Source of the DNA: a virus
Reading direction: 5' to 3' (one strand)
IMG/VR virus record: IMGVR_UViG_3300009605_000007
Span: 1-35,817 of that record
Length of the DNA: 35,817 bases
Made by a program: the position numbers and the translations under genes. The notes beneath the pieces are model-generated. The model did no database searches. It had not been told where the DNA came from and saw only the letters and a program-made list of their open reading frames with translations. Position 1 is the first letter of the stretch; each line of letters begins with the position of its first letter. This document shows positions 4,432 to 35,817 of this stretch, one piece after another.

Positions 4432-5111
4432 TGGCTAAGTTCAACGAATTAACTGAGCAGTTCAGGAAGCGCAGAGACGAGATTAATCTTGCGCTCGATA
4501 ATCCTGAGCTGGCTGGTGAGGCCATCGATGCAGAGGTCACTCCCCTAAACGAGTCTTCTCCTACCTTCGCGGCCAAGCTGGTGGAGAGATCGGTCAACAC
4601 GACAATGTACCTGAAGCAAATCATGCCTACTACCTTTGAAAAGAAAGGGCCATTCTCCAGAGAGATCTTGCCACCAGAAACCCAAATGGCTGAGTGGAAC
4701 AGGAACTATGATGTGGCCTATGACCCTAGAGAGTACTTTGAAGCAGTCGAGCGTGGAGATGTGACCAGAGGCATGACCGCTGCATTCAATGCGGTATGGC
4801 CTGAATTGTCTGTGGATTTTCGTACTAAGTTCCTAGAGCGTCTTGGAGATGAAGAGAATCTTGATATGCCCTTCAATGCTAAGGTAAATTTAGCTATGGC
4901 GCTTGGAATAGATACAGATCCGGTTTTAGATCCCAGCTTTGTTCTGCCTTTGCAGCAGGTCATTGCCGGGGAACCCTTGGCCGATGAGGCCCAGAAAGAT
5001 GAGGGTGCGGTTAAGCCCACTATGACCGGGATGAAACAATTAAAGGGCATTCCTGAAAGGGAGATGACAGGCCCACAACGAGTAAATCAATATGTTAAGC
5101 CTTGGAAATAG
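4431..5111 (+). CDS. Hypothetical virion-associated protein (226 aa)
   Basis: The ATG overlaps the stop of the 1,090-residue gene (TAATG), with GGGAAAGAAGAG upstream as ribosome site. The protein is soluble and acidic in its N-terminal third, has no membrane segment and ends with a basic Pro/Gln tail (QYVKPWK). Tight coupling to the ejection-protein genes suggests a structural or assembly partner, perhaps a small ejection or chaperone-like protein. I do not recognise the family. Confidence 0.6.
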   Translation: MAKFNELTEQFRKRRDEINLALDNPELAGEAIDAEVTPLNESSPTFAAKLVERSVNTTMYLKQIMPTTFEKKGPFSREILPPETQMAEWNRNYDVAYDPREYFEAVERGDVTRGMTAAFNAVWPELSVDFRTKFLERLGDEENLDMPFNAKVNLAMALGIDTDPVLDPSFVLPLQQVIAGEPLADEAQKDEGAVKPTMTGMKQLKGIPEREMTGPQRVNQYVKPWK

Positions 5112-5132
5112 GCAGAGTATAAGGAGAAAACA

Positions 5133-5594
5133 ATGGCAGAAAATATAACCAACTCGCCCACACTGTCGCTCCCCTATAAGGGTGCAGACTATAGGGCACA
5201 AAGCATCGTTGATGTTCTGGCTCCAGTAGGGATTCAAGCATCAGCTACATCCAATACTTTTTCGATAAGAGGGAAAGACCGTATAACGGTTCTGGCCACT
5301 TATGATCACAACGCGAGTCCCTGTACCGCAGTGAACGTTACGCTGGAGCTATGCGTGGATGATGGAGATACTTTCTTCTTCAAACAAAACGATGATCACC
5401 CCGGCCCAACTCCGGTACACACCCTCGCCACCGCAGTCTACACGCATGCCGTTGGAGCGGATTCAAACTTTGCGTTTGATATTCCCGTAAACGCTAGGTG
5501 GGCAAGACTCCACGCTATTGGCACTGGCGCTGATGATAGCGAGACTCTTGGTCTTAGTGTATGCATCGCTGTTGACGGGGGAATAGGTAGGTAA
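5133..5594 (+). CDS. Hypothetical beta-rich structural protein (153 aa)
   Basis: The start ATG has a strong AAGGAG site 6 bases upstream. The protein is rich in Thr, Ala, Val and Asp with alternating hydrophobic residues (predicted beta-sandwich type) and no membrane segment. It resembles in general character the 130-residue protein that follows the capsid gene. Because it lies among late genes, a virion decoration or tail-accessory protein is plausible. The family is not recognised. Confidence 0.6.
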   Translation: MAENITNSPTLSLPYKGADYRAQSIVDVLAPVGIQASATSNTFSIRGKDRITVLATYDHNASPCTAVNVTLELCVDDGDTFFFKQNDDHPGPTPVHTLATAVYTHAVGADSNFAFDIPVNARWARLHAIGTGADDSETLGLSVCIAVDGGIGR

Positions 5595-5598
5595 TGAT

Positions 5599-5829
5599 AT
5601 GCCTGATTGGTTTATATCGTGGGGGAAGATCGTGGCCATTGCAGCCACGACTGCCTCCTTTATGGCGGTGGCTTCACCTTGCAGCACCGGATACAAGTTT
5701 GTGGAGAAGTCGCCTCATGCCGGAGTTCACCAAGAACTAGACAGCCGTCTAAGGTCTATGGAAGTAAGACAGGCAGATATACATGATGATGTTAAACTAA
5801 TACTAGATCACATTTTAAGGAGTGAATAA
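5599..5829 (+). CDS. Small membrane-anchored coiled-coil protein (76 aa)
   Basis: The protein has one N-terminal hydrophobic segment (about residues 4-26) followed by a charged helical domain (about 42-74). This topology is shared by inner-membrane spanins and by some holin-like or lysis-accessory proteins. It lies about 1.2 kb before the holin and amidase, separated by small basic-protein genes, so a lysis role is possible but not shown. Its stop overlaps the next ATG (TAATG at 5827-5831). Confidence 0.55.
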   Translation: MPDWFISWGKIVAIAATTASFMAVASPCSTGYKFVEKSPHAGVHQELDSRLRSMEVRQADIHDDVKLILDHILRSE

Positions 5830-6140
5830 TGGCAAAGAAAAAGGTGAAGAAGAAGACGAGGGCAGGGAAGAGCAATGTGGGGAAGTATCCCCAAATAGCA
5901 AAGACCCGCACTGCACATAAATTAGCCCAAAAAATATCCCGGACTTCTTCTGAGGTTCCAGAAGGGTGGTACGTTTCCCCTGTTACGGGTAGGGCGTGGG
6001 TTAAGGCCGACTATCCAGATCGAACTAAGAAGGATATTGAAAAGTCCAAGAGCCTGAGAACCATAGTCACCTCCAGAGGCGAGAAGGCAAACGCCAAGCT
6101 CAAGCCCAAGAGAAGACCAGTTACCCAAAGGAGAAAATAA
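5829..6140 (+). CDS. Highly basic small protein (103 aa)
   Basis: The ATG overlaps the preceding stop, and GGAG lies just upstream. The protein is extremely rich in Lys and Arg at both ends (KKKVKKKTRAGK at the start, PKRRPVTQRRK at the end) with a short central segment containing GWYVSPVTGRAW. The charge suggests nucleic-acid binding, perhaps a DNA-associated or packaged protein. It begins a run of four small late genes, three of them basic. No known family is recognised. Confidence 0.6.
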   Translation: MAKKKVKKKTRAGKSNVGKYPQIAKTRTAHKLAQKISRTSSEVPEGWYVSPVTGRAWVKADYPDRTKKDIEKSKSLRTIVTSRGEKANAKLKPKRRPVTQRRK

Positions 6141-6298
6141 TGCCAATGGTAATAAATAAATCAGGAACCACAGAGTTCCCCTATACGGCTAAGGGCGTAA
6201 AGGACGCACAAGCGTTAGCACAGAAAACAGGTGGGCGTGTTGTTCACCATCAAGATGATCCTAGAAAGGAATTAAAAAATGAAAATGAAAGTACCTAG
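6140..6298 (+). CDS. Small hypothetical protein (52 aa)
   Basis: The ATG overlaps the stop of the basic protein (TAATG), with an AAAGGAG ribosome site about 7 bases upstream. The predicted protein begins MPMVINKSGTTEFPYT and contains TAKGVKDAQALAQKTGGRVV, a pattern that reads like a compact alpha/beta domain. It overlaps the next gene by 20 bases in another frame. It is short, but its coupling and ribosome site make it credible. The function is unknown. Confidence 0.6.
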   Translation: MPMVINKSGTTEFPYTAKGVKDAQALAQKTGGRVVHHQDDPRKELKNENEST

Positions 6299-6470
6299 AG
6301 CGCCTACTTCTACAGTGGCACCTTTCCCCAAGCTTAAGGGGAATCCATCACATAAAAAGGTTTATGACGATGCTGGCTTTGGAGCCAAAGGCATGACCTT
6401 GAAAGAAGAGTTAACCCAGTTAGACGCAACCCCAGAGGGTCGCAGGACTGACAGTAATAAGGGAGAATAA
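6279..6470 (+). CDS. Small hypothetical protein (63 aa)
   Basis: The start ATG has AAAGGAA about 8 bases upstream, and the gene overlaps the end of the 52-residue gene. The protein is Pro- and Lys-rich at the N-terminus and hydrophilic throughout, with the segment YDDAGFGAKGMTLKEELTQL. There is no membrane segment. It is one base from the next ATG after its TAA. It is probably a small late accessory protein of unknown role. Confidence 0.55.
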   Translation: MKMKVPRAPTSTVAPFPKLKGNPSHKKVYDDAGFGAKGMTLKEELTQLDATPEGRRTDSNKGE

Positions 6471-6471
6471 A

Positions 6472-6762
6472 ATGGCACAGGCAAGATCTACAGCCAAGGG
6501 CAAGAAACTATCTAAGGAATATATTAAGAAGGCGCGGCAACGCAAAGGTGGTTCAAATGTGGGGGAATACTCTGCGAGTGATACCTTCGCTGGCCCTTCT
6601 GGTGGTGCGCCCAAAGGCAGCTACCCGCTCACTATGAACGGAAAGCCTAGCAAGAAGCGCATCGAGTCGGCCATTATGCTGGCTCATAATGCACCCAATC
6701 CGGGCGGCATTAAGAAGAAGGCCAGAGCCTATGCAAAGCGTCACGGCATAGTGATCGGATAA
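6472..6762 (+). CDS. Small basic protein with phage capsid-type C-terminal motif (96 aa)
   Basis: The protein is Lys/Arg-rich. Its second half (SYPLTMNGKPSKKRIESAIM, then APNPGGIKKKARAYAKRHGI) resembles a short motif I recall from phage head-associated proteins, in which a 'sYPi...kkRi.sAi.l...a....k.kI...AkrhGi' pattern occurs (DUF6582-like; recalled, not searched). The role is unknown. Basic charge and the late position suggest a virion or DNA-associated function. The gene starts one base after the preceding stop. Confidence 0.6.
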   Translation: MAQARSTAKGKKLSKEYIKKARQRKGGSNVGEYSASDTFAGPSGGAPKGSYPLTMNGKPSKKRIESAIMLAHNAPNPGGIKKKARAYAKRHGIVIG

Positions 6763-6766
6763 ATAT

Positions 6767-7045
6767 ATGAAAGACGGAAAAAGTACTTCTGAACATAAGC
6801 TGGCGAAAGTAGCCATCATTACAAGTCTGGTTCTGCCAATTTTGGCGGCAATCGTCGAAGTGGTGCAAAATAGTGGGTATGTCGAAAGTCCTCTCACGCT
6901 TGCTATACTGGGGGTCGCAGGAACTTGTCTCGCTTCTCTTGGCTATGGTGCATCGCGCACAAAGCTTAAGGCACAACAGCTTGCGGTTGATGCACAGGCA
7001 CTCACTGTCCTGCACGAAGGAACCAAGAAGACAAAAAAGTCCTGA
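6767..7045 (+). CDS. Putative holin (92 aa, two membrane segments)
   Basis: The protein has a short charged N-terminus, two hydrophobic helices at about residues 14-33 (VAIITSLVLPILAAIVEVV) and 42-62 (PLTLAILGVAGTCLASLGYG), and a Lys-rich C-terminus ending GTKKTKKS. Size, topology and position directly upstream of the amidase gene are those of class II-like phage holins, which form the membrane lesion that starts lysis. The assignment rests on topology and context. Confidence 0.75.
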   Translation: MKDGKSTSEHKLAKVAIITSLVLPILAAIVEVVQNSGYVESPLTLAILGVAGTCLASLGYGASRTKLKAQQLAVDAQALTVLHEGTKKTKKS

Positions 7046-7066
7046 GTCAGATCGTGGCTGCGCTGG

Positions 7067-7933
7067 ATGAGGCGAAGGCGCTTCCTAAAAAACGTGGCCG
7101 AGTGGATCTACTCTTGGATTACCGCCATATTCACCTATTGGTCGGTGCCCGGTACATACACCGGATTACACAGAATCTATCCGCTACCGCAGAGGCGTGG
7201 GCCTCCGATAAGGAGTATGCCGCCAGCGGAGGAATCCGATGGGATTTTTGACGGGTCACCCCTACCTGTGGTTATTTTACCTGACGGGGAGCAGATGGAT
7301 CTGTATGACTTACACGTTGTCAATCAAATTCGTTCCGCAAATGACGGGCGCTATAAGGCCCTATTGCGCCCGGAAAAGATTGTAGTCCATCGAGTAGGCC
7401 CAGAGTTAGATTGCAGACTTAATGATTGCCATTATTGCCAGACAGAACATGCACATACAGATAAAAGTCATTCCTTTGCCCTCCACGTTTGCCGATGGTT
7501 TCAAACACATCCCCGGATCGGCCTGACCGGAGGCGCGAACCCGTACCACCTCATTATCGACTTTGACAAGACTGAACAGTCACTTTGTTTAGATGAATGT
7601 GGTGCCCACGCACGTAGGTGGAACTCCAAGAGCATAGCCATAGCTCTGCGCGGAGACTTCAATTATAGGCACCCGACACCCTACCAAAAAAGCGCCCTCT
7701 ACCAGCTCTGCTGTCTGCTCAGTCTGTATCTGGGAACCATAGATATCTGGGGTCACACTGAATTACCTAGCGCCACCAAAGACCCGATGAAGCGTTGTCC
7801 CGGAGGATACCTGAGAATGGAACAATTCAGAGAAGCAGTAAGGGATAAATTGCGAGGTAAAATGAGAACCTACACCAAAGAAGAAATAAAAGAGATGCTT
7901 ACATCTTGTGGTGTCTCAGTGGACGGTGTATAA
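7067..7933 (+). CDS. N-acetylmuramoyl-L-alanine amidase endolysin (Amidase_2 type)
   Basis: This endolysin should cleave the bond between muramic acid and L-alanine in peptidoglycan. The amidase domain spans about residues 100-260, with probable zinc ligands H108 (VVHRVG), H230 (WGHTELP) and C244 (KRCPGGY), and the family elements YHLIIDFD and IAIALRGDFN. The N-terminus carries RRRR followed by an aromatic hydrophobic helix (about residues 10-28), which could be a signal anchor. The ATG at 7067 has a poor ribosome site. An in-frame ATG at 7217 would remove the anchor, but its AAGGAG is only about one base away, so I keep 7067. The gene follows the holin. Confidence 0.85.
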   Translation: MRRRRFLKNVAEWIYSWITAIFTYWSVPGTYTGLHRIYPLPQRRGPPIRSMPPAEESDGIFDGSPLPVVILPDGEQMDLYDLHVVNQIRSANDGRYKALLRPEKIVVHRVGPELDCRLNDCHYCQTEHAHTDKSHSFALHVCRWFQTHPRIGLTGGANPYHLIIDFDKTEQSLCLDECGAHARRWNSKSIAIALRGDFNYRHPTPYQKSALYQLCCLLSLYLGTIDIWGHTELPSATKDPMKRCPGGYLRMEQFREAVRDKLRGKMRTYTKEEIKEMLTSCGVSVDGV

Positions 7934-8033
7934 CGGAGTTGACGAACTTATGTTTGTTACCTCTGGCTGCTTGGGGATTTTTACTCTCATCCAGTTTTAC
8001 CCCAAGCGGCCAAAATTCTTTTATATTCCGTAA
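7908..8033 (+). CDS. Possible small membrane protein overlapping the end of the amidase gene
   Basis: A GTG-started frame (41 residues), or an internal ATG at 7950 (27 residues), overlaps the amidase stop. It contains a short hydrophobic stretch (MFVTSGCLGIFTLIQFY) followed by basic residues. CGGAG lies 11 bases before the ATG, which is a weak fit. The lysis-cassette position makes a small accessory protein conceivable. Another frame across the same bases is also open, so support is poor. Confidence 0.25.
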   Translation: MVSQWTVYNGVDELMFVTSGCLGIFTLIQFYPKRPKFFYIP

Positions 8034-8316
8034 TACCCGGCATCTTAATCCGAAATGCGCGTCAAAGTTAGCATATTGCTGCACAGGTGCGCAGCAACGG
8101 CGGTTGATGCGCAGAAACAGTGCTTTTATGCGCAACAAAATTTTCACAAAACGGGTGCCTGTCTTGTGACGACTTGACTAAATGAAGCCACTTGCATTCC
8201 GTTTAGTGAAGATCTTCTGTACCCGTTCATGCGGATTCAACCCGTTCTCTTGCGTCGAGCGTAACTGCTGATTGTTCCTCATGTACCCTGTTAACCTTCT
8301 CTGCTGTTAAACTTTC
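8034..8316. other. Convergent non-coding junction with short repeats
   Basis: This stretch lies between the end of the rightward late genes and the end of the leftward early genes. It holds TGCGC-centred repeats at 8056, 8088, 8108 and 8129 (the last three about 20-21 bp apart, as TGCGCAGCAAC, TGCGCAGAAAC and TGCGCAACAAA), a direct repeat ACCCGTTC at 8221 and 8240 with its inverse AACGGGT at 8150, and inverted repeats TCACAA/TTGTGA and ACTAAA/TTTAGT. No terminator with a clear T-run was seen, although transcripts must end here from both sides. Confidence 0.5.
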
Positions 8317-8745
8317 TCACCGCTGTTCAAGTCTTGCTCCCCTACCCGGAGGCAGACCAGTCTCTATGATGTTTGGGTTACGCGCCTTGACCAGCTTGTT
8401 GAAGTCTATTGGCTGCTCCAGTAACCAGTCGTGGATTCCGTCTATCATCGCCCATTGGGAGTGGAAGAAGCGCATAAAGGTCTCCTCCTCTTTATCCACC
8501 TGTGCTTGCCTATCTTCCGGCCTGAAGCGTTCATGTGAGTCTGCTATTGCCTTTCCAACCATAGACTTAAAAAGGGGAACAACCTGTTCCATCATCCACT
8601 TCCAATTCTCTTGGCAGAACTTAGGGTTGAATCCCAACACAAACTCTTTGTCTCCCTTCCAAACTCCCTCCTCTACATATTTAGGGTCACTCCACTCCTC
8701 ATAATATTCTTCTAGTCTCTGGGCTACTGCTTCTTCTAATGTCAT
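8317..8745 (-). CDS. Hypothetical early protein with C-terminal TGLPPGxG motif (142 aa)
   Basis: The start is placed at 8745 because AAGGAGAAGAACA precedes that ATG, and it overlaps the upstream nuclease stop as ATGA; an earlier ATG at 8772 is less well placed. The protein is helical and acidic, with many Trp and Phe residues (ENWKWMMEQV). It ends with IIETGLPPGRGARLEQR. A nearly identical TGLPPGPGHKL occurs in the replication protein at 9785-10519. Being the last gene of the leftward block, it may act with that replication protein. The family is not recognised. Confidence 0.65.
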   Translation of the reverse strand: MTLEEAVAQRLEEYYEEWSDPKYVEEGVWKGDKEFVLGFNPKFCQENWKWMMEQVVPLFKSMVGKAIADSHERFRPEDRQAQVDKEEETFMRFFHSQWAMIDGIHDWLLEQPIDFNKLVKARNPNIIETGLPPGRGARLEQR

Positions 8746-9113
8746 TGTTCTTCTCCTTTTATTGTGGGACAAATCCCGGTTTCTTTAGCTTTAATCCATA
8801 GGTTTAACATAGGCATGAAGTCATCGAGAAGGAGGGTTGCGGTGGGGTCTTCCCTGTCATCCCGGCATATAGCGACTGCCATCCGGTCATCCTTGGCCTC
8901 CAGTGCTTGCTTGAGGGCGGCTTTGATGTTGGTCTTCTTTCCCCGCTTGGCCTCAACCCAGACGTAGGGCATCTCAACGTCCGGGCATTCCCGGTTGTCT
9001 CGTGTCTGCCCCAGTCCTCGCTTAATGGTGAAGTTAGGGAACCAGCGCCTAAACAGGTGAACCAGTTCTCTCTCGTAGTTGTGTCCTTTGTTCCTACTTC
9101 TTGCACCACTCAT
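8742..9113 (-). CDS. Hjc-like Holliday-junction resolvase / PD-(D/E)XK nuclease (123 aa)
   Basis: The small basic protein begins SRNKGHNYERELVHLFRRWF and continues with CPDVEMPYVWVEAKRGKK. The arrangement E14, D45, E54-x-K56 with a preceding RNKG motif matches the archaeal Hjc/phage resolvase branch of PD-(D/E)XK nucleases, which cut four-way DNA junctions and could debranch replicated phage DNA before packaging. The length (123 residues) is normal for the family. The ATG lies inside the end of the small lipoprotein gene, and the TGA overlaps the next start. Confidence 0.75.
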   Translation of the reverse strand: MSGARSRNKGHNYERELVHLFRRWFPNFTIKRGLGQTRDNRECPDVEMPYVWVEAKRGKKTNIKAALKQALEAKDDRMAVAICRDDREDPTATLLLDDFMPMLNLWIKAKETGICPTIKGEEQ

Positions 9114-10523: not shown

Positions 10524-10766
10524 TTACCCCTCTTTAATTTTATAAAGTTTCTCATCATCATTATAAGAAATGATTTTAACCAGCTCTCCCTCCGACAAGG
10601 AGCGAAGAGCCTTCACCAGTTTACTATTCGTCATGCTCAAGTAAGAGCATAACTCTGCCAGCGTCATCCCTGACTCATTATCCACAAGCGCCATTAGAAC
10701 GGTCGCGGTCTCGCGGCCATAAAATGGTCTATACTTGTGGTACGCATCTAACCCCTTCTGGGTCAT
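10524..10766 (-). CDS. Winged-helix DNA-binding protein (80 aa)
   Basis: The sequence shows a compact winged-helix pattern: helix (TATVLMALVDNESG), helix-turn-helix (MTLAELCSYLSMTNSKLVKALRSL) and a wing (GELVKIISYNDDEKLYKI). This resembles MarR/ArsR-type or replication-associated winged helices. It is the only clear sequence-specific DNA-binding candidate in the genome, so it may bind the repeat array at 18.3-18.7 kb (inference). Its ATG overlaps the TGA of the upstream gene, and it ends four bases before the DUF6475-like gene. Confidence 0.7.
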   Translation of the reverse strand: MTQKGLDAYHKYRPFYGRETATVLMALVDNESGMTLAELCSYLSMTNSKLVKALRSLSEGELVKIISYNDDEKLYKIKEG

Positions 10767-10966: not shown

Positions 10967-11386
10967 TTACCCCTTTGCTGTTGTTCTGGTTTGCTGAGAG
11001 GCTTCCTTGCGCTTCTCAGCGTGTATTCTGTTATGACATCCCCTACACACCCACCGGACGTTGAGGAAGTCTTTTCTTTCATAGCTGTCGTGATGACCAT
11101 CTGGGTGGCAAGTGATGCCACACAATTCGCATGTTGTTGGTCGAGTGAGAAATCCGTACTCGACGGCAAAGGCAACGGCTCTTTGCGCTGCACGCTTCTC
11201 TGGATTGAGTCTTCGCCACTCCCGGACTTGCTCACGCTTCTTGCCCTTGGTCTCTCTCCAGCGTTTGCGCCGGGAGATTCTGGTACATTCAGCACACTCA
11301 CTTCGACGCCCATCCTTTCTCGATGGGTTTCGATGGAACTGGGATACTTCCTTGGTTGTCTGACACACCTTGCACAGCTTCGTCAT
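10967..11386 (-). CDS. HNH endonuclease (139 aa)
   Basis: The N-terminal half is a zinc-finger-like, strongly basic region (CKVC at 5-8, CAEC at 31-34, then RRKRWRETKGKKREQ). The catalytic half contains CELC (86-89), DGHHDSYERKDFLNVRWVC and CHNRIH, which is the beta-beta-alpha-metal HNH fold with H98/H99, N119 and H122. Such genes are common mobile nucleases of phage genomes, or nicking enzymes. Its 5' end overlaps the replisome-organizer-like gene by 89 bases, which could reflect insertion of a free-standing homing-type nuclease. Confidence 0.8.
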   Translation of the reverse strand: MTKLCKVCQTTKEVSQFHRNPSRKDGRRSECAECTRISRRKRWRETKGKKREQVREWRRLNPEKRAAQRAVAFAVEYGFLTRPTTCELCGITCHPDGHHDSYERKDFLNVRWVCRGCHNRIHAEKRKEASQQTRTTAKG

Positions 11387-11888
11387 CCGCTAACCATTCC
11401 TGCGCCGCAGTGATCGTACGGCGAGTCTTTGGTTTTACGAGAGTCTGTTTTGGCTTGTCAAAAATCTCAAGAAACATATCAACCTTCTCACCAGACCTAA
11501 CCACCAGTTCTAGCTGGAGATACTGCGTCTGGTTTTTATTATCTCCTAAGTGAAACGGACTTTGGTGCTGTCCGTCAATAGCATTACAAAGTTCTTGCAC
11601 AGAATAACCCTCTATTAAGCGTCCCTCGATCTTTTTAAAGATGCCTGAATTTTTTTTCACGGAACGCATTGCCTTGGGATGATATTTCTGATAGTGATTT
11701 ATGATATAGAATACGTTGTCATATATATTACTTCTTTTACTCTTAATTATATTCTTACTTGTGTTCTTAACTATATCCTTTTCTTTCTTTATCTTACTTT
11801 CTTTCTTTTGAATTTGTTTTTGCACTTGATGTAGCAACGCGATTGCTTGCCCCAAGGCTTCTTCTACTCCGTCAAGATTTTGACACAT
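11298..11888 (-). CDS. Replisome-organizer-like protein with an AT-rich Lys-rich linker (196 aa)
   Basis: The start at 11888 has GGAGG five bases upstream, better than the ATG at 11900. After a short helical N-terminus comes a Lys/Ser/Asn-rich linker (about residues 30-57), encoded by very AT-rich DNA with a 12-bp tandem repeat. It is followed by a domain (YDNVFYIINHYQKYHPKAMR ... IEGRLIEGYSVQELCNAIDG ... LELVVRSGEKVDMFLEI). This domain resembles the C-terminal domain of phage replisome organizers or DnaD/Phg_2220_C-like proteins (recalled). A lambda-O-like role is plausible. The C-terminus overlaps the HNH gene. Confidence 0.6.
   Translation of the reverse strand: MCQNLDGVEEALGQAIALLHQVQKQIQKKESKIKKEKDIVKNTSKNIIKSKRSNIYDNVFYIINHYQKYHPKAMRSVKKNSGIFKKIEGRLIEGYSVQELCNAIDGQHQSPFHLGDNKNQTQYLQLELVVRSGEKVDMFLEIFDKPKQTLVKPKTRRTITAAQEWLADDEAVQGVSDNQGSIPVPSKPIEKGWASK
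11741..11776. repeat. Three tandem 12-bp AT-rich repeats inside the replication gene
   Basis: Three adjacent 12-mers read TCTTAATTATAT, TCTTACTTGTGT and TCTTAACTATAT. They lie in an AT-rich, strand-asymmetric segment (about 11690-11830) within the replisome-organizer-like gene. On the coding strand they give a degenerate tetrapeptide repeat ending in Lys. Lambda-type origins also lie inside the initiator gene as iterons beside an AT-rich stretch, so this may be an origin or simply a repetitive linker. Confidence 0.5.
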
Positions 11889-11936
11889 TGTTACCTCCAA
11901 TAAAGTACCGGGAAAGGTCAGCGGGGTAAGAGCTGA

Positions 11937-17579: not shown

Positions 17580-17933
17580 TTAAATGTGAGTCATTACGGG
17601 TTCGTCATTGCGCTTCGTCCATCGATGGTGAATCTTTTTAAGATCGCCAATATGGGGATCGTGGGTCAAATTGCCATCAACCCAGCCCTTTTCCACTGCC
17701 CGATCGTATTCTGCTAAATCTTCCTCTAACAACGTCAAAGTTCCGATTGTGTGACAAGCCCAGCACACAAAGTACCATACTTGTCTTCCCATTGGATTTG
17801 GGCGCTCTTTGATTGCGTATCCGCAGCAAGTGGATTCGCATCGCTCACAAGCTGGGGCGTTGTCGGTTAGGTGTGTGGCTTGGCGCTTTATGGCCGAACC
17901 TGCATTGATTGCTTCTTTTGTCAGCTCTATCAT
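17580..17933 (-). CDS. Zinc-ribbon-like first early protein (117 aa)
   Basis: I choose 17933 because a promoter (-10 at 17977-17982) lies downstream of the ATG at 18005, so a message starting near 17970 could not include that ATG, and because AAGGAT sits 7 bases before 17933. Residues CERC...CC and CWAC suggest a zinc-binding ribbon. The C-terminal part is basic and His-rich (IHHRWTKRNDEP). As the promoter-proximal early gene it could act as a regulator or host-takeover protein. The family is not recognised. Confidence 0.6.
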   Translation of the reverse strand: MIELTKEAINAGSAIKRQATHLTDNAPACERCESTCCGYAIKERPNPMGRQVWYFVCWACHTIGTLTLLEEDLAEYDRAVEKGWVDGNLTHDPHIGDLKKIHHRWTKRNDEPVMTHI

Positions 17934-17954
17934 GTAAATCATCCTTGTTTTGAT
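17931..17954 (-). promoter_or_regulatory. Shared early leader / ribosome site (copy 1 of 4)
   Basis: The leftward sequence ATCAAAACAAGGATGATTTACATG precedes the 117-residue gene. Related leaders with CTAAAA followed by A/C-AGGATG occur before the 248-residue gene (17551-17575), the 199-residue gene (16737-16760) and the 31-residue gene (16085-16107), each placing AGGA 7-8 bases before the ATG. Confidence 0.55.
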
Positions 17955-17976
17955 GGTCATAAGTAACCACATAAAG

Positions 17977-18005
17977 AGCATATAGGGCTTCCTATAACCA
18001 GTCAA
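17977..18005 (-). promoter_or_regulatory. Probable leftward early promoter (sigma70-like)
   Basis: On the minus strand a -35 TTGACT (18005-18000) and -10 TATGCT (17982-17977) are separated by 17 bp. Transcription would begin near 17970, upstream of the ATG at 17933, and read all early genes. TAGG-type motifs at 18036-18064 lie just upstream of the -35 and could be binding sites. Confidence 0.65.
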
Positions 18006-18269
18006 GATAAAAGCACAAGAAAGAACAATGATATCATGTAGTTAGAGGTAGGATAGAAACCTACACGCTGCCAGATTAAAACTAGAGTCAAGCCTAAAAA
18101 GAGCCTTTTTGATGTGTGTTGTACTCGCACTTTATCCTACCTTGCACACACGCTGAGAATGGCTTCTGAGGCGTTTTAAAATGGGATGAATGGCAAAGCA
18201 TCTCTTTTTTATAAATTGATTCTAACGCACGAGGTTGCGATCTGAGAGGCGCTCGTACCTTTGCCTACT
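18006..18269. other. Non-coding stretch upstream of the early promoter
   Basis: I see no gene here. It contains outlying copies of the array motif (ATGTAG at 18036, AGGTAGG at 18046-18052, CCTACAC at 18060, TCCTACC near 18136), an inverted pair GTAGG/CCTAC at 18048 and 18060, and a short AAAAAG/CTTTTT hairpin at 18096-18110. The motif density is lower than in 18270-18690. Confidence 0.5.
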
Positions 18270-18319
18270 TGACCTCCACTGTAAGTTTGTGTAAGCCTTG
18301 TCTCACCCTGTAGGCAAAG
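18259..18319. repeat. Ten-bp inverted repeat flanking the left edge of the array
   Basis: CTTTGCCTAC at 18259-18268 is the exact reverse complement of GTAGGCAAAG at 18310-18319, with 41 bp between. The right arm is itself one of the TGTAGG motif units. A second exact pair, GGAACC at 18340-18345 and GGTTCC at 18352-18357, lies inside the array around another TGTAGG unit. Confidence 0.6.
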
Positions 18320-18690
18320 TATGTTTATGTAGGGAATAGGGAACCAATGTAGGTTCCAAGGCGAGAATGTAGGGAATTGTAGGTAATAATGGGATATTTT
18401 AGTACATATACCTACTTATACCTACGATTACTCACCTTATCGCACCTTATACGACATAAACTTACATCAAACTACATCCAACGACACCTGAATACATTGG
18501 AATACATTGCTATACATGTAGGGAATATACTTACATGTATGGATAGGTGGGATAAATCATACATCCACCTACATTCCCCCACAAGTAGGGAAGTGTGGGA
18601 CATGTATGGAAATGTAGACAAAGGTGGTAGATGTAGGTGCGTGTATGGAGATGTAGGATATGTAGGGAAATGTAAGAATTTACGCACATC
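18270..18690. repeat. Helically phased array of short TGTAGG-type motifs
   Basis: About 400 bp is filled with ATGTAGG-like words at close to 10-bp intervals. In the left part, GTA or GTAGG units occur at 18281, 18291, 18310, 18319, 18329, 18349, 18369 and 18379. The orientation then reverses (18401-18520) and reverses again (18581-18680, GT dinucleotides 9-10 bp apart). Palindromic TACATGTA junctions occur at 18513-18520 and near 18532. I see no convincing gene here; open frames result from the repeated sequence. It lies between the divergent early and late blocks. Confidence 0.85.
18401..18520. repeat. Twelve consecutive decamers with invariant AC at positions 4-5
   Basis: In exact 10-bp register from 18401, all twelve units have A at position 4 and C at position 5, with consensus near NNTACATNNA. 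Clear members are CTTACATCAA, ACTACATCCA, AATACATTGG and TATACATGTA. The units are diverged, yet no base was gained or lost over 120 bp, which suggests selection for helical spacing rather than recent duplication. Confidence 0.85.
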
Positions 18691-18712
18691 CCCTTACACC
18701 CCCCTCCAACTC

Positions 18713-18743
18713 TTGAATACGCACTCATACCAGTCACTAATAT
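18713..18743 (+). promoter_or_regulatory. Possible rightward late promoter
   Basis: TTGAAT (18713-18718) and TAATAT (18738-18743) are separated by 19 bp, which is longer than ideal. The start point would be near 18750, immediately before a terminator-like hairpin. The repeat array lies directly upstream, where activator sites would be expected. Weak on its own; context adds support. Confidence 0.4.
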
Positions 18744-18751
18744 TTTTTACG

Positions 18752-18784
18752 GGCCTCCTCAAAACTGGGGTGGGTCTTTTTTTT
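18752..18784 (+). terminator. Terminator-like hairpin with eight T residues upstream of the first late gene
   Basis: GGCCTCCTC (18752-18760) pairs with GGGTGGGTC (18768-18776), with one mismatch and some wobbles around a 7-base loop. It is followed by TTTTTTTT at 18777-18784. Lying between a possible late promoter and the first late gene, it may attenuate late transcription unless read through. Confidence 0.6.
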
Positions 18785-18807
18785 AGTTACCCATAAAGGA
18801 GAATTTT

Positions 18808-19020
18808 ATGTCAGAGGAACAAGAACAGATAAGGCAGAAGTACACAGAATTATGTACTCAATTAGGTCATGTAGAGCAGCAGCTTATGAATCTTCAGTCT
18901 CAGAAGACGCAGCTCAAAACTCAGATTGATGGGCTGGAAATCGGAATGATGGTAGTATCTCAATTGGAGCCAGTAAGTGAAGATAAAGAAGAAAACCCAG
19001 AACAAATTAACGCCGCTTGA
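18808..19020 (+). CDS. First late-block protein, short coiled coil (70 aa)
   Basis: The ATG has AAAGGAG six bases upstream. Most of the protein is one charged helix (QIRQKYTELCTQLGHVEQQL, LQSQKTQLKTQIDGLEIG), a typical coiled-coil pattern, with an acidic tail. It is the first gene after the control region. It overlaps the next gene by 44 bases. A terminase-associated or regulatory role is possible; the family is not recognised. Confidence 0.65.
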   Translation: MSEEQEQIRQKYTELCTQLGHVEQQLMNLQSQKTQLKTQIDGLEIGMMVVSQLEPVSEDKEENPEQINAA

Positions 19021-19396
19021 AGACCGTCCGGTATTTGAAGCCTCAGACCTGCGTAGGCAGGAGAGGAAGGAATCGGATGGTTTTTTGAAGGCTGCGAAGG
19101 AGCAGGTTAGTGCATTGCGTATTCTGCCCAACACGCAGACTCTCGTTGCGGATGCTATGTCCATATGCCAGCTTGAAATAGCCAAGCTGATCGGACAGGC
19201 TTCTGGGACTCTATCTACTCTTCGCCCTGATGACTCAAAGCATTTCATGCGGATGGGGAATCTTCTCAGAACTCTCGCCACTCTGGAGGGGGATATGGAG
19301 AAGAGGACTCGCATAGACCGCCTGAGTGACAACGAGTTACGAGGCGAAGTTAAAAAGGCTCTTCATTTGATGAAGGCCGAAGAAGGAGATGAGTGA
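18977..19396 (+). CDS. Hypothetical protein, candidate small terminase or DNA-binding role (139 aa)
   Basis: The GTG start has GGAG seven bases upstream. The protein is basic at the N-terminus (KIKKKTQNKL) and otherwise helical (QTLVADAMSICQLEIAKLIG, MRMGNLLRTLATLEGDMEKR, LSDNELRGEVKKALHL). Helical proteins of this size near the terminase gene are often small terminase subunits, but I see no clear helix-turn-helix. It is offered as a candidate only. It overlaps the HExxH gene by eight bases. Confidence 0.5.
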   Translation: MKIKKKTQNKLTPLEDRPVFEASDLRRQERKESDGFLKAAKEQVSALRILPNTQTLVADAMSICQLEIAKLIGQASGTLSTLRPDDSKHFMRMGNLLRTLATLEGDMEKRTRIDRLSDNELRGEVKKALHLMKAEEGDE

Positions 19397-20717: not shown

Positions 20718-20799
20718 ATTTTTTCGCTGGGAAGATGGCCCAGTCTATGTTCCGATAAAGACACCAGAAGATGGCAAAAAATACAAAGAAGACAACTAG
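20644..20799 (+). CDS. Small hypothetical protein (51 aa)
   Basis: The ATG has GGAGGT about ten bases upstream. The sequence starts with a basic helix (MRRKRLQRVREVGEPKRRVE) and continues with FFRWEDGPVYVPIKTPEDGK. It overlaps both the 102-residue gene and the start of the terminase gene. The compact WEDGPVYVPI segment and ribosome site suggest a real gene, perhaps coupling to terminase translation. The function is unknown. Confidence 0.5.
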   Translation: MRRKRLQRVREVGEPKRRVELPWDKFFRWEDGPVYVPIKTPEDGKKYKEDN

Positions 20800-22252
20800 C
20801 AATATGAATGTTCTTAAGGCCAGAACGGTCTTAAAAGAATATACTAAACGCTTCGGGGATCTCCCGCCCATAGGCAAGGACACCCGCCACACTGAGAGGT
20901 CTACCCAGTTTTTTAAGGATTGTTTTCAAGAGCAAATTGACTTTATAGCAGATCCGTCTAAATTGAAGACTGCACTGTGTTCAAGACGAGCCGGGAAGAC
21001 TCATGCAGCAGCAGTATATTTATTAAAAGAAATGGTAGAGCATCCCGGCTCTGAAGCCGCCTATATTGCCCTGACCCGCTCCAACGCCAAGCGGGTTATG
21101 TGGCCCAAGCTTAAGCAGCTTAGTGCCCAGTATTCTCTGGGTCTCCACTTCAATAATTCAGAACTTTTTTGCACCTTTCCGAACGAAAGCGTAATCTATT
21201 TAACAGGAGCTAATGACCAAGCTGATGTCGATAAACTTAGAGGATCTGCTTTTCGTCTCGTTGTTCTTGATGAGTGTGCGTCTTTTGGCCGACATATGGA
21301 TGAGCTGGTCGAAGAAGCCCTAGAGCCTACCCTCATCGATTGCGATGGAACCTTGTGTATGATCGGAACGCCGAACGCACACTGCTCCGGGATCTTCTTC
21401 CGCATGACCACAATGGAGGACAGCGATTACTCTAATCACGCTTGGACGATTATGGAGAATCCCCATATCCCTCACGCAGGGGACTGGCTAGATCAACGGA
21501 TGGCCCGGCGGGGGTGGGGAGATGACCATCCGGTCTTTCTCCGGGAGTGGCGCGGCAAGTGGGTTCGCAGCGCAGATTCTCTTGTCTATCGAATTTTTGA
21601 AGACAAGAACATTTACGAAACCCTCCCCATTGACGATTTCGACTTTGAGTACATTCTGGGTGTTGACTTGGGTTTCGAGGATGCAACGGCATTCACTGTC
21701 GTAGCATTCAGTCGAGACCTTCCCTTTCTCTATCTGGTCGATGAATTTAAGGCCAGCCATATGATACCTACAGAAATCGCGCAGCATATTCGTCAACTCA
21801 CGAACATTTATGAATTTATCAAAATCGTTGTCGATACGGGCGGCCTTGGCAAGAGCATTGCGGAGGAGTTTCGCATCCGCTACCAACTTCCCATCACTGC
21901 CGCAAGCAAATATGACAAATTCGCTTACATTGAGCTTCTTAACTCTGATCTGGCCTCCGGATTCATTAAGCTGCCTCGCGGAAGCGGTCTGGAAGATGAG
22001 TGGAGGCTCTTGCAGTGGGATGAAAAACGCCAGAAGGAAAGCGAACGCTGTGAGAACCATTTGTCTGATGCCTTTCTTTATGCTTGGCGTGAGTCAAGAC
22101 ACTATTGTAGTGAAGAATTGATAAGACCGCCAAAATACGGGACGAGCCAGTGGTTCACTGATGAATGCAAGAAGATGGAAGAAGAAGAATTACAGAGGCT
22201 TGAGAAGGTTGAAAACGAAGATGAATGGTGGGAAACGGAGAATTTACAATGA
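20771..22252 (+). CDS. terL: Terminase large subunit (493 aa)
   Basis: The ATPase domain has an atypical Walker A CSRRAGKT (residues 70-77), Walker B VVLDE (164-168) and a coupling region MIGTPNAHCSG. The nuclease domain has ILGVDLGFEDAT (D299), IVVDTGGLG (D355) and HLSDAFLYAWR (D433), the three acidic positions of the RNase-H-like fold. The enzyme translocates DNA into the procapsid and cuts it. Length and motif order are normal. The TGA overlaps the next ATG. Confidence 0.95.
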   Translation: MAKNTKKTTSNMNVLKARTVLKEYTKRFGDLPPIGKDTRHTERSTQFFKDCFQEQIDFIADPSKLKTALCSRRAGKTHAAAVYLLKEMVEHPGSEAAYIALTRSNAKRVMWPKLKQLSAQYSLGLHFNNSELFCTFPNESVIYLTGANDQADVDKLRGSAFRLVVLDECASFGRHMDELVEEALEPTLIDCDGTLCMIGTPNAHCSGIFFRMTTMEDSDYSNHAWTIMENPHIPHAGDWLDQRMARRGWGDDHPVFLREWRGKWVRSADSLVYRIFEDKNIYETLPIDDFDFEYILGVDLGFEDATAFTVVAFSRDLPFLYLVDEFKASHMIPTEIAQHIRQLTNIYEFIKIVVDTGGLGKSIAEEFRIRYQLPITAASKYDKFAYIELLNSDLASGFIKLPRGSGLEDEWRLLQWDEKRQKESERCENHLSDAFLYAWRESRHYCSEELIRPPKYGTSQWFTDECKKMEEEELQRLEKVENEDEWWETENLQ

Positions 22253-34855: not shown

Positions 34856-35817
34856 ATGGCCTACAGAGTGGACGAAGAACAGGGTTCTCATTATTCAGCT
34901 CCCAATCAATGGCAGCAGCTACAGGATATTATTTCTGAGTTAGACCCTAATCGTATCGGTGATGAAGCTGCTCTTATCAAGGTAGCCAAAAGAGCTGAAG
35001 AGCTAGGACTGGGAACCTATGACCAGCTAAGGGGGAAAGAAGGTCTTTGGCAAAACCCCCGAATGCCTTGGAGCAATGTAGGCTATGGGCCGATGGAGAG
35101 AGCTGTAGGGGAGAGAAAACTAGCCGCAGATGAGGCTGCGTTGGAGACACAAGAAAGAGCCGATGCTAGATATGTGTCTGCTCTTAGCCCTGCACAACAG
35201 GCTGAGTATGCCCTGCAACAAGCCCAGACCGCTGCACTCCCTATTGGGGAGAGAGGGCCAGTTTCTGGTGGTCAGAGATACATAGAAGATCTCCAAGCGC
35301 AGCAAACAGCTCAGGCACGGCGTTCTCCTGGACTCGCTCAAGAAGGTATGGTTGGGGCTGATGATCCCTTCTTTCTCCAAAAGATGGCAGAGGCAGAGGG
35401 AAGAGAGTCGCAAGCCGAAAGGTTATACAGGGAAGTACGACAGGGTAAATATGGTAAAGGGAGCAGTATTCCCAGACATTTACGCGAACGACTTCTTGAA
35501 CTGGCTCCAGAATATCGTGCAGCAATGGCGGCTCTCGATGAGTCTCCTGAAGCACAAAGGAAAGCAGCGGCTGAAGGAAGACTGGATACTCTTCTTGAAG
35601 AAGGGGAGCGCATTACAAAGTACGACGAGGAGACTGGCCGGGAACTCACTATGGCCGCAGACTCGTGGATCAAGTACGAGACTCAACAAGAGTTCAATAA
35701 AGCTAGAACTGCCGCAGTCGAAAACTTTAATGCAGACCTCTCCGGTGGAATAAAGGGTTCTGATTTGGTTTATGCTCAATTAGCGGTGGTCTTAGGTTCT
35801 GTTGGAACAGGCTTGGC
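34856..35817 (+). CDS. Probable ejection (internal virion) protein, N-terminal part of the junction-spanning gene
   Basis: AAGGAG lies about seven bases before the ATG. The frame is open to the window end and continues in frame from base 2, giving about 665 residues in total. This part is hydrophilic and rich in Ala, Glu, Gln and Arg (ALSPAQQAEYALQQAQTAAL), with predicted coiled coils. It lies in the trio of ejection proteins. Frames in other phases over 35.1-35.8 kb are shadows. Confidence 0.75.
   Translation, partial: MAYRVDEEQGSHYSAPNQWQQLQDIISELDPNRIGDEAALIKVAKRAEELGLGTYDQLRGKEGLWQNPRMPWSNVGYGPMERAVGERKLAADEAALETQERADARYVSALSPAQQAEYALQQAQTAALPIGERGPVSGGQRYIEDLQAQQTAQARRSPGLAQEGMVGADDPFFLQKMAEAEGRESQAERLYREVRQGKYGKGSSIPRHLRERLLELAPEYRAAMAALDESPEAQRKAAAEGRLDTLLEEGERITKYDEETGRELTMAADSWIKYETQQEFNKARTAAVENFNADLSGGIKGSDLVYAQLAVVLGSVGTGL
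35695..35817. repeat. Right copy of 123-bp terminal direct repeat
   Basis: This copy is identical to bases 1-123. Joining the copies restores one continuous coding frame (34856 through to 1159), which supports circularity of the map and a unit length of 35,694 bp. Confidence 0.95.

Follow-up and report, generated by a model that had tools for sequence, protein, structure and literature searches.

The window, that is the whole stretch of 35,817 nucleotides analysed here, represents the complete genome of a phage, ∼35.7 kb long and assembled as a circle, because bases 1–123 are repeated exactly at 35695–35817 and the final open reading frame continues into the first one. Despite this exact terminal repeat of 123 bases its record is classed as one without end repeats. 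The phage is uncultured and probably marine. Its leftward gene block codes for an exonuclease, a Sak4-like annealing protein, an O-like replication protein and a RusA-like nuclease, and its rightward block for the large terminase subunit (TerL, 20771–22252, plus strand), the portal and the capsid. Between both blocks lies an intergenic, helically phased array of the motif ATGTAGG and its complement CCTACAT (18260–18700). The array is a non-coding stretch with about two dozen motif copies in both orientations on a single face of the helix.

The array begins with a forward run (18280–18385, plus strand) with TA steps at 18282, 18292, 18311, 18320, 18330, 18350, 18370 and 18380. This run meets a reverse run (18401–18515, minus strand, matrix sites from 18403), which keeps an exact 10-bp register with ACA each 10 bp. 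The meeting point is an AT-rich core, TGTAGGTAATAATGGGATATTTTAGTACATATACCTAC (18376–18416), near-identical in the relatives L007 and G003. There follow two divergent, palindromic units, ATACATGTAGGG and TTACATGTATGG (18511–18541, reverse-to-forward offset 6), a short reverse run, CATACATCCACCTACATTCCCCCACAA (18558–18584, minus strand), a second long forward run (18585–18677, plus strand; 18586, 18605, 18615, 18634, 18644, 18654, 18663 and 18673) and terminal reverse units, CACATCCCCTTACAC (18685–18699, minus strand).

On the left side a putative satellite operator, ATGTAGTTAGAGGTAGGATAGAAACCTACAC (18036–18066), contains three sites of the same motif and is almost invariant in the window, G003 and L007. 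These sites are 20–60 bp upstream of a probable leftward early promoter, TTGACT-17-TATGCT (17977–18005, minus strand), for which the aligned site of G003 gives 10 of 12 consensus matches; the number of early-promoter-type matches in the region is not above that in shuffles. The listed start of a 141-aa open reading frame (17580–18005) overlaps this promoter, and its real start is likely the ATG near 17937 behind AAGGATG.

On the right side the array is followed by a C-run and a late-leader element, CACCCCCCTCC..CTCTTGAATACGCAC..ACTAATATTTTT (18697–18745, plus strand), and by a terminator-like hairpin with a T-run (18750–18785, plus strand) directly before the first late gene (18808–19020, plus strand). 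The latter codes for a coiled coil protein of 70 aa and is a conserved neighbor of the array in the clade of the window. In nearly all relatives examined the array is separated from the late leader by a C-run of some six to nine bases (18697–18707 in the window); a G-run replaces it in L003 and L005, and L002 has no C-run before its first late gene. Further downstream a gene for a helical protein of 139 aa (18977–19396, plus strand) occupies the terS position upstream of TerL, and by position only its product would be a small terminase.

Open reading frames do overlap the region 18260–18700, and the longest comprises 135 aa (18389–18796). Since stop codons occur in every frame of the window between 18260 and 18807 and in every forward frame of the corresponding region of L007, it is unlikely that the array is a coding sequence, and it appears to be mostly non-coding. 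Searches against Rfam and for tRNAs gave no match.

Periodicity and grammar of the array

A first-pass annotation had described a phased TGTAGG array at 18270–18690, and autocorrelation, shuffles and a matrix from another genome confirm it. The autocorrelation of 18261–18700 has its maximum at lag 10 (0.449, z ∼9 versus shuffles) with echoes at 19–20 and 29, a peak near 10 bp which shuffled sequence lacks, and nowhere else in the window is the lag-10 value as high. With shuffles that preserve dinucleotides, z is 8.3. A weight matrix built from L007 alone (consensus ACATGTAGGTAA) finds 24 sites in 18260–18700, where 0.9 are expected. By these three lines of evidence a chance origin of the array is ruled out. 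An unconstrained EM motif fit collapsed onto TG repeats and was discarded, and a comparison of substitution rates in core and spacer between the window and L007 was uninformative.

The motif is (A)TGTAGG, its TGTA core is most conserved, and the half-site ATGTAGG has an information content of ∼11 bits. All same-orientation pairs up to 45 bp apart are spaced by 9–10, 19–20, 28–30 or 38–40 bp. The true unit spacing is thus 9–10 bp with a mean of ∼9.8, a correction to the 9.5–10 bp assumed at first. Similarly, the "dozens" of motifs amount to about two dozen strong copies, the remainder being degenerate units in the same register; the orientation switches more than three times; and the array stands with its left limit moved to ∼18260 and the satellite added. 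Reverse-to-forward (R-F) pairs are separated by 6, 16 or 26 bp and forward-to-reverse (F-R) pairs by 13, 22–23 or 32–33 bp. The grammar can hence be written as offsets of 10 for F-F, 6 for R-F (the palindrome CCTACATGTAGG) and 13 for F-R, each plus 10n. These offsets fit one shared register through the orientation flips, so that the proposed location of all motifs on a single helix face is borne out.

In 12 arrays outside the training set the pooled pairwise phase coherence is 0.84 at a period of 9.8 bp, compared to at most 0.17 in 100 position shuffles. A search pattern that includes a 10-bp pair and part of the palindrome led to some of the large-phage loci, which are hence biased to the offsets 10 and 6, and L070 was picked up by scanning for three words spaced 10 bp apart. 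No pattern was involved in finding the window and L034, a free-spacing scan gave L183 and L196, and the offsets 13 and 23 bp are absent from every search pattern.

The array region in close relatives

A search with TerL yielded 24 loci, 22 of which show 66–100% identity. L007 keeps the array with ∼120 extra bases. In G003 (L004 and L034) both ends and the core are kept and the middle is a 30-bp repeat of Fur-like boxes; three Fur-box-like 19-mers lie at exact 30-bp spacing within the array (35626–35686). L002, L003 and L005 have other 10-bp words, for example, CGTATGG in L002 and L003, and the 67% clade carries different motifs, among them TGATATCATTAAGG in L009, L010, L013 and L015. Fur-like 19-mers with up to 17 of 19 matches occur in G012 at 5108, 5178 and 7395–7430. 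G012, G013 and L019 contain near-perfect sigma54-like sites (TTGGCACGN4TTGCA), 6 to 11 per record versus 0.8 in shuffles and many of them in the control region. They cluster at 7960–8369 in G013, 5065–8987 in G012 and 2881–3041 in L019, and many point into early genes. Early phage transcription via the host RpoN would be unusual; a literature search found no paper on sigma54 early promoters in phages.

The 800-bp stretch preceding the first late gene ranks high within the genome for a step periodicity of 9.5–10.8 bp in six genomes (1/44, 3/39, 1/41, 2/41, 4/49 and 1/51); in a seventh it ranks 26/45. Control periods are mostly without enrichment there. As the top ranks are reached despite differing motifs, the periodicity outlasts the sequence in the control region, and the conservation of phase but not of sequence expected from the first-pass annotation is seen in six of the seven genomes. 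Seven of 13 upstream contig ends (L002–L020) fall 300–900 bp before the first late gene (p = 3e-4), and two circular genomes were opened inside the array; both observations fit the expectation for a hypervariable locus.

The array in distant phages

Pattern scans of viral contigs identified L070, L183 and L196, whose TerL proteins are 30–33% identical to that of the window and which have the same array upstream of an acetyltransferase–TerL block. In L224 (TerL 35% identical) the array is likewise upstream of the packaging/late block. With the L007 matrix 25 sites are found in L196, 14 in L183 and 5 in L070 (expected 1.8, 0.5 and 0.2). The array length seems to change fast, because these 14 and 5 sites lie beside a neighbor protein of 150 aa which is 89% identical between L183 and L070.

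The same grammar is found at one locale per genome in the unrelated large phages G025 (160 kb), G027 (191 kb), G028 (74 kb) and G029 (131 kb), in three of the four within a small patch of genes on the opposite strand to the rest of the genome. The idea that the array is unique to one phage group must therefore be given up in view of both the large phages and those with distant TerL. In every large phage the array is flanked by two paralogous genes of ∼80 aa (L252: 13835–14101 and 15080–15307; L233: 7530–7763 and 9235–9480; L249: 4900–5118 and paralogues). The fold predicted for their products weakly resembles PC4/Whirly/PUR single-strand-binding proteins; they could be assigned to no Pfam family, and PHROG gave no significant match. 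BLAST at 1e-3 revealed no match between the proteins of the window or G017 and those of G025–G029, where distant homologues are possible, and the RusA-like nuclease is the only match of the window's early proteins in G017, though the motif is common to both.

No DNA match to the arrays was found in the annotated phages and plasmids searched, and no paper containing CCTACATGTAGG in the literature searched. A permuted control word also yielded 21 contigs with intergenic 10-bp arrays, and we dropped the notion that any 10-bp tandem repeat is special; in the free-spacing scan the matches listed show only a mild excess at 8–11 bp. Intergenic 10-bp tandem arrays of other words occur in unrelated phages (L080, L081, L083, L084, L090, L094 and L098), and arrays of this period may be common to phages in general, though uncatalogued so far. 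The array described here is real, specific and recurrent. It belongs to a known broad kind, the protein-binding repeat array, and in the literature searched its grammar and distribution were not found described.

Discussion

The sites, their single register, their position and their recurrence in other phages are observed directly. We suggest, at somewhat less than an even chance, that this single-copy control array is a transcription switch on which a sequence-specific protein assembles cooperatively and wraps the DNA that separates the early promoter from the late leader, in the main control region of the phage. One such protein would recognize the half-site ATGTAGG, form dimers on CCTACATGTAGG and spread cooperatively with one subunit per 9–10 bp, so that one face of ∼440 bp of DNA would become coated or wrapped. 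Binding to the array and to the satellite operator would regulate two flanking elements, the leftward early promoter and the late leader, the latter with a promoter-proximal terminator.

We infer cooperative assembly with one subunit per helical turn from the single register. A role in transcription is suggested by the position, by the satellite near the early promoter and by the promoter words next to the motif: TTGACA directly precedes it in L196 and L070, and it abuts sigma54-like sites in L183 and L196. Consistent with a switch, matrix and grammar hold in arrays outside the training set, and the array is upstream of the late or packaging block in L007, G003, L070, L183, L196 and L224. The upstream genes of L070 and L183 are co-directional, with terminators at their ends, so the constant neighbor is the late side. 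Moreover, the satellite beside the early promoter is almost invariant. Relatives which changed the motif retain the periodicity, and some have sites of host-regulator type in the region (Fur-like boxes in G012 and G003, sigma54-like promoters in G012, G013 and L019). The large phages have one array locale per genome of 74–190 kb, in three of four cases in the opposite-strand patch, with small genes adjoining.

Several points argue against a switch. Sigma70-like promoter counts around the arrays are not above shuffles (in L220, 11 versus 6.3), 400–600 bp is long for an operator, and the array length varies fast between L183 and L070. A cognate regulator was sought: the winged-helix protein named earlier as a candidate binder (10524–10766) does not track the motif, as it is kept in the motif-less G002 and G013 and has no match in the motif-bearing G017, and no other candidate was found. 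No protein common by BLAST to the window or G017 and the large phages was detected either. As the motif is shared and no shared phage protein is detectable, the evidence favors either a host factor or a small phage protein that diverges fast as the binder.

Related architectures are known. ParR/parC and the RHH proteins omega and MetJ use short sites in tandem, roughly one subunit for each 7–11 bp, and assemble cooperatively in a filament-like manner, which is the assembly proposed for the array. The latter is, however, much longer and has orientation flips, the window has no recognized partition genes, and no partition family was found among the annotated neighbors. Response-regulator sites of the OmpR/PhoB family are likewise direct repeats one helical turn apart, usually with 2–6 half-sites, whereas the array has two dozen in both orientations.

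We regard it as unlikely that the motifs are iteron-like initiator sites whose convergent runs flank a melting AT-rich core, where the O-like and helicase-loader proteins recruit the helicase. The single locale per genome in phages of 36–190 kb fits a replication origin, and the AT-rich core beside the repeats is conserved in the window, L007 and G003. In the large phages the two flanking genes, with their weak fold match to single-strand-binding proteins, would also suit an origin. The cumulative GC skew has its minimum at the array in the window (17790–18584) and near it in G013 (8506, array at 8200). Nevertheless, this minimum is confounded because the gene direction flips at the same place, and the array has no such signature in the skew of G017 or the large phages. 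Besides, no phage initiator conserved together with the array was detected, the RusA-like nuclease being the sole early protein of the window found in G017. The O-like gene (11298–11900) has an AT-rich low-complexity stretch of its own (11741–11808), and lambda-type origins lie at such a place. Iteron origins (lambda O, P4 alpha, plasmid Rep) are clusters of short motifs near an AT-rich core at one locale per genome, as is the array. They consist, however, of direct iterons of 17–22 bp, whereas the units of the array follow at 10 bp and flip their orientation within one register, and the array is common to phages without detectably related replication genes.

A packaging site is less probable still. 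In SPP1/SF6 it has been proposed that DNA wraps round the small-terminase ring by conformational selection; the SPP1 pac includes promoters as well as the beginning of terS, resembles nucleosome-positioning DNA and can be selected by its conformation (PMC4737164). Like the array it is non-coding, with promoters and repeats just upstream of the terminase genes and a proposed nucleosome-like phasing (PMC4737164), and this precedent would fit the motif swaps. The genomes appear to be circular or permuted, as G000, G003, G008, G013 and G017 have the head/tail overlaps of circular assembly. Furthermore, the array is directly upstream of the packaging operon in the window clade and in L070, L183, L196 and L224, and the periodicity is kept under sequence change while the neighboring 139-aa protein stays near-identical in L008, L012, L019 and L022. 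On the contrary, a specific 11-bit motif in two orientations over ∼440 bp, found across distant phages, is more specific than selection of shape needs, and in G027, which encodes a tail-sheath gene, the array is ∼100 kb from the portal gene. The 139-aa protein has no small-terminase match: no Pfam or PHROG family was found for it, Foldseek gave no fold match at E < 0.001 in PDB and BFVD, and hhalign no relation to the L196-family protein. It is a candidate small terminase by its position.

We consider it improbable that the array is a decoy or sponge which titrates a host DNA-binding protein, a regulator or silencer, during infection. Many sites at one place, the sigma54-like promoter arrays and Fur-like boxes that some relatives carry instead, the motif turnover within ∼10% TerL divergence and the clustered contig ends of a hypervariable locus would all be in line with titration, which needs, however, neither a strict phase nor a conserved satellite operator; the sampled bacterial genomes contained no comparable array, the sole match being one REP-like repeat. 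Neutral tandem repeat expansion by slippage is very improbable: 10-bp arrays of other words are indeed common between phage genes, as the permuted word illustrates, but slippage does not account for orientation switches within a single register, for palindromic units, for spacers that diverge around preserved cores, or for a grammar that recurs in the same gene neighborhood at 30–35% TerL identity.

Beyond the switch itself, it is possible, though we would sooner doubt it, that the array represents a widespread, undescribed cis-element of phages: a helically registered filament site with the grammar 10/6/13 bp, present once per genome of 36–190 kb in phages that have no detectable proteins in common, and recognized by one conserved host factor with which these phages organize their control region. 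A strict, orientation-independent grammar common to such phages implies a common, so far unnamed DNA-binding partner. The motif swaps in close relatives, some of them to sigma54-like or Fur-like sites, suggest a rapid reconnection of phage control regions to different host regulators, and the grammar of the array provides a search signature for control regions in the genomes of uncultured phages.
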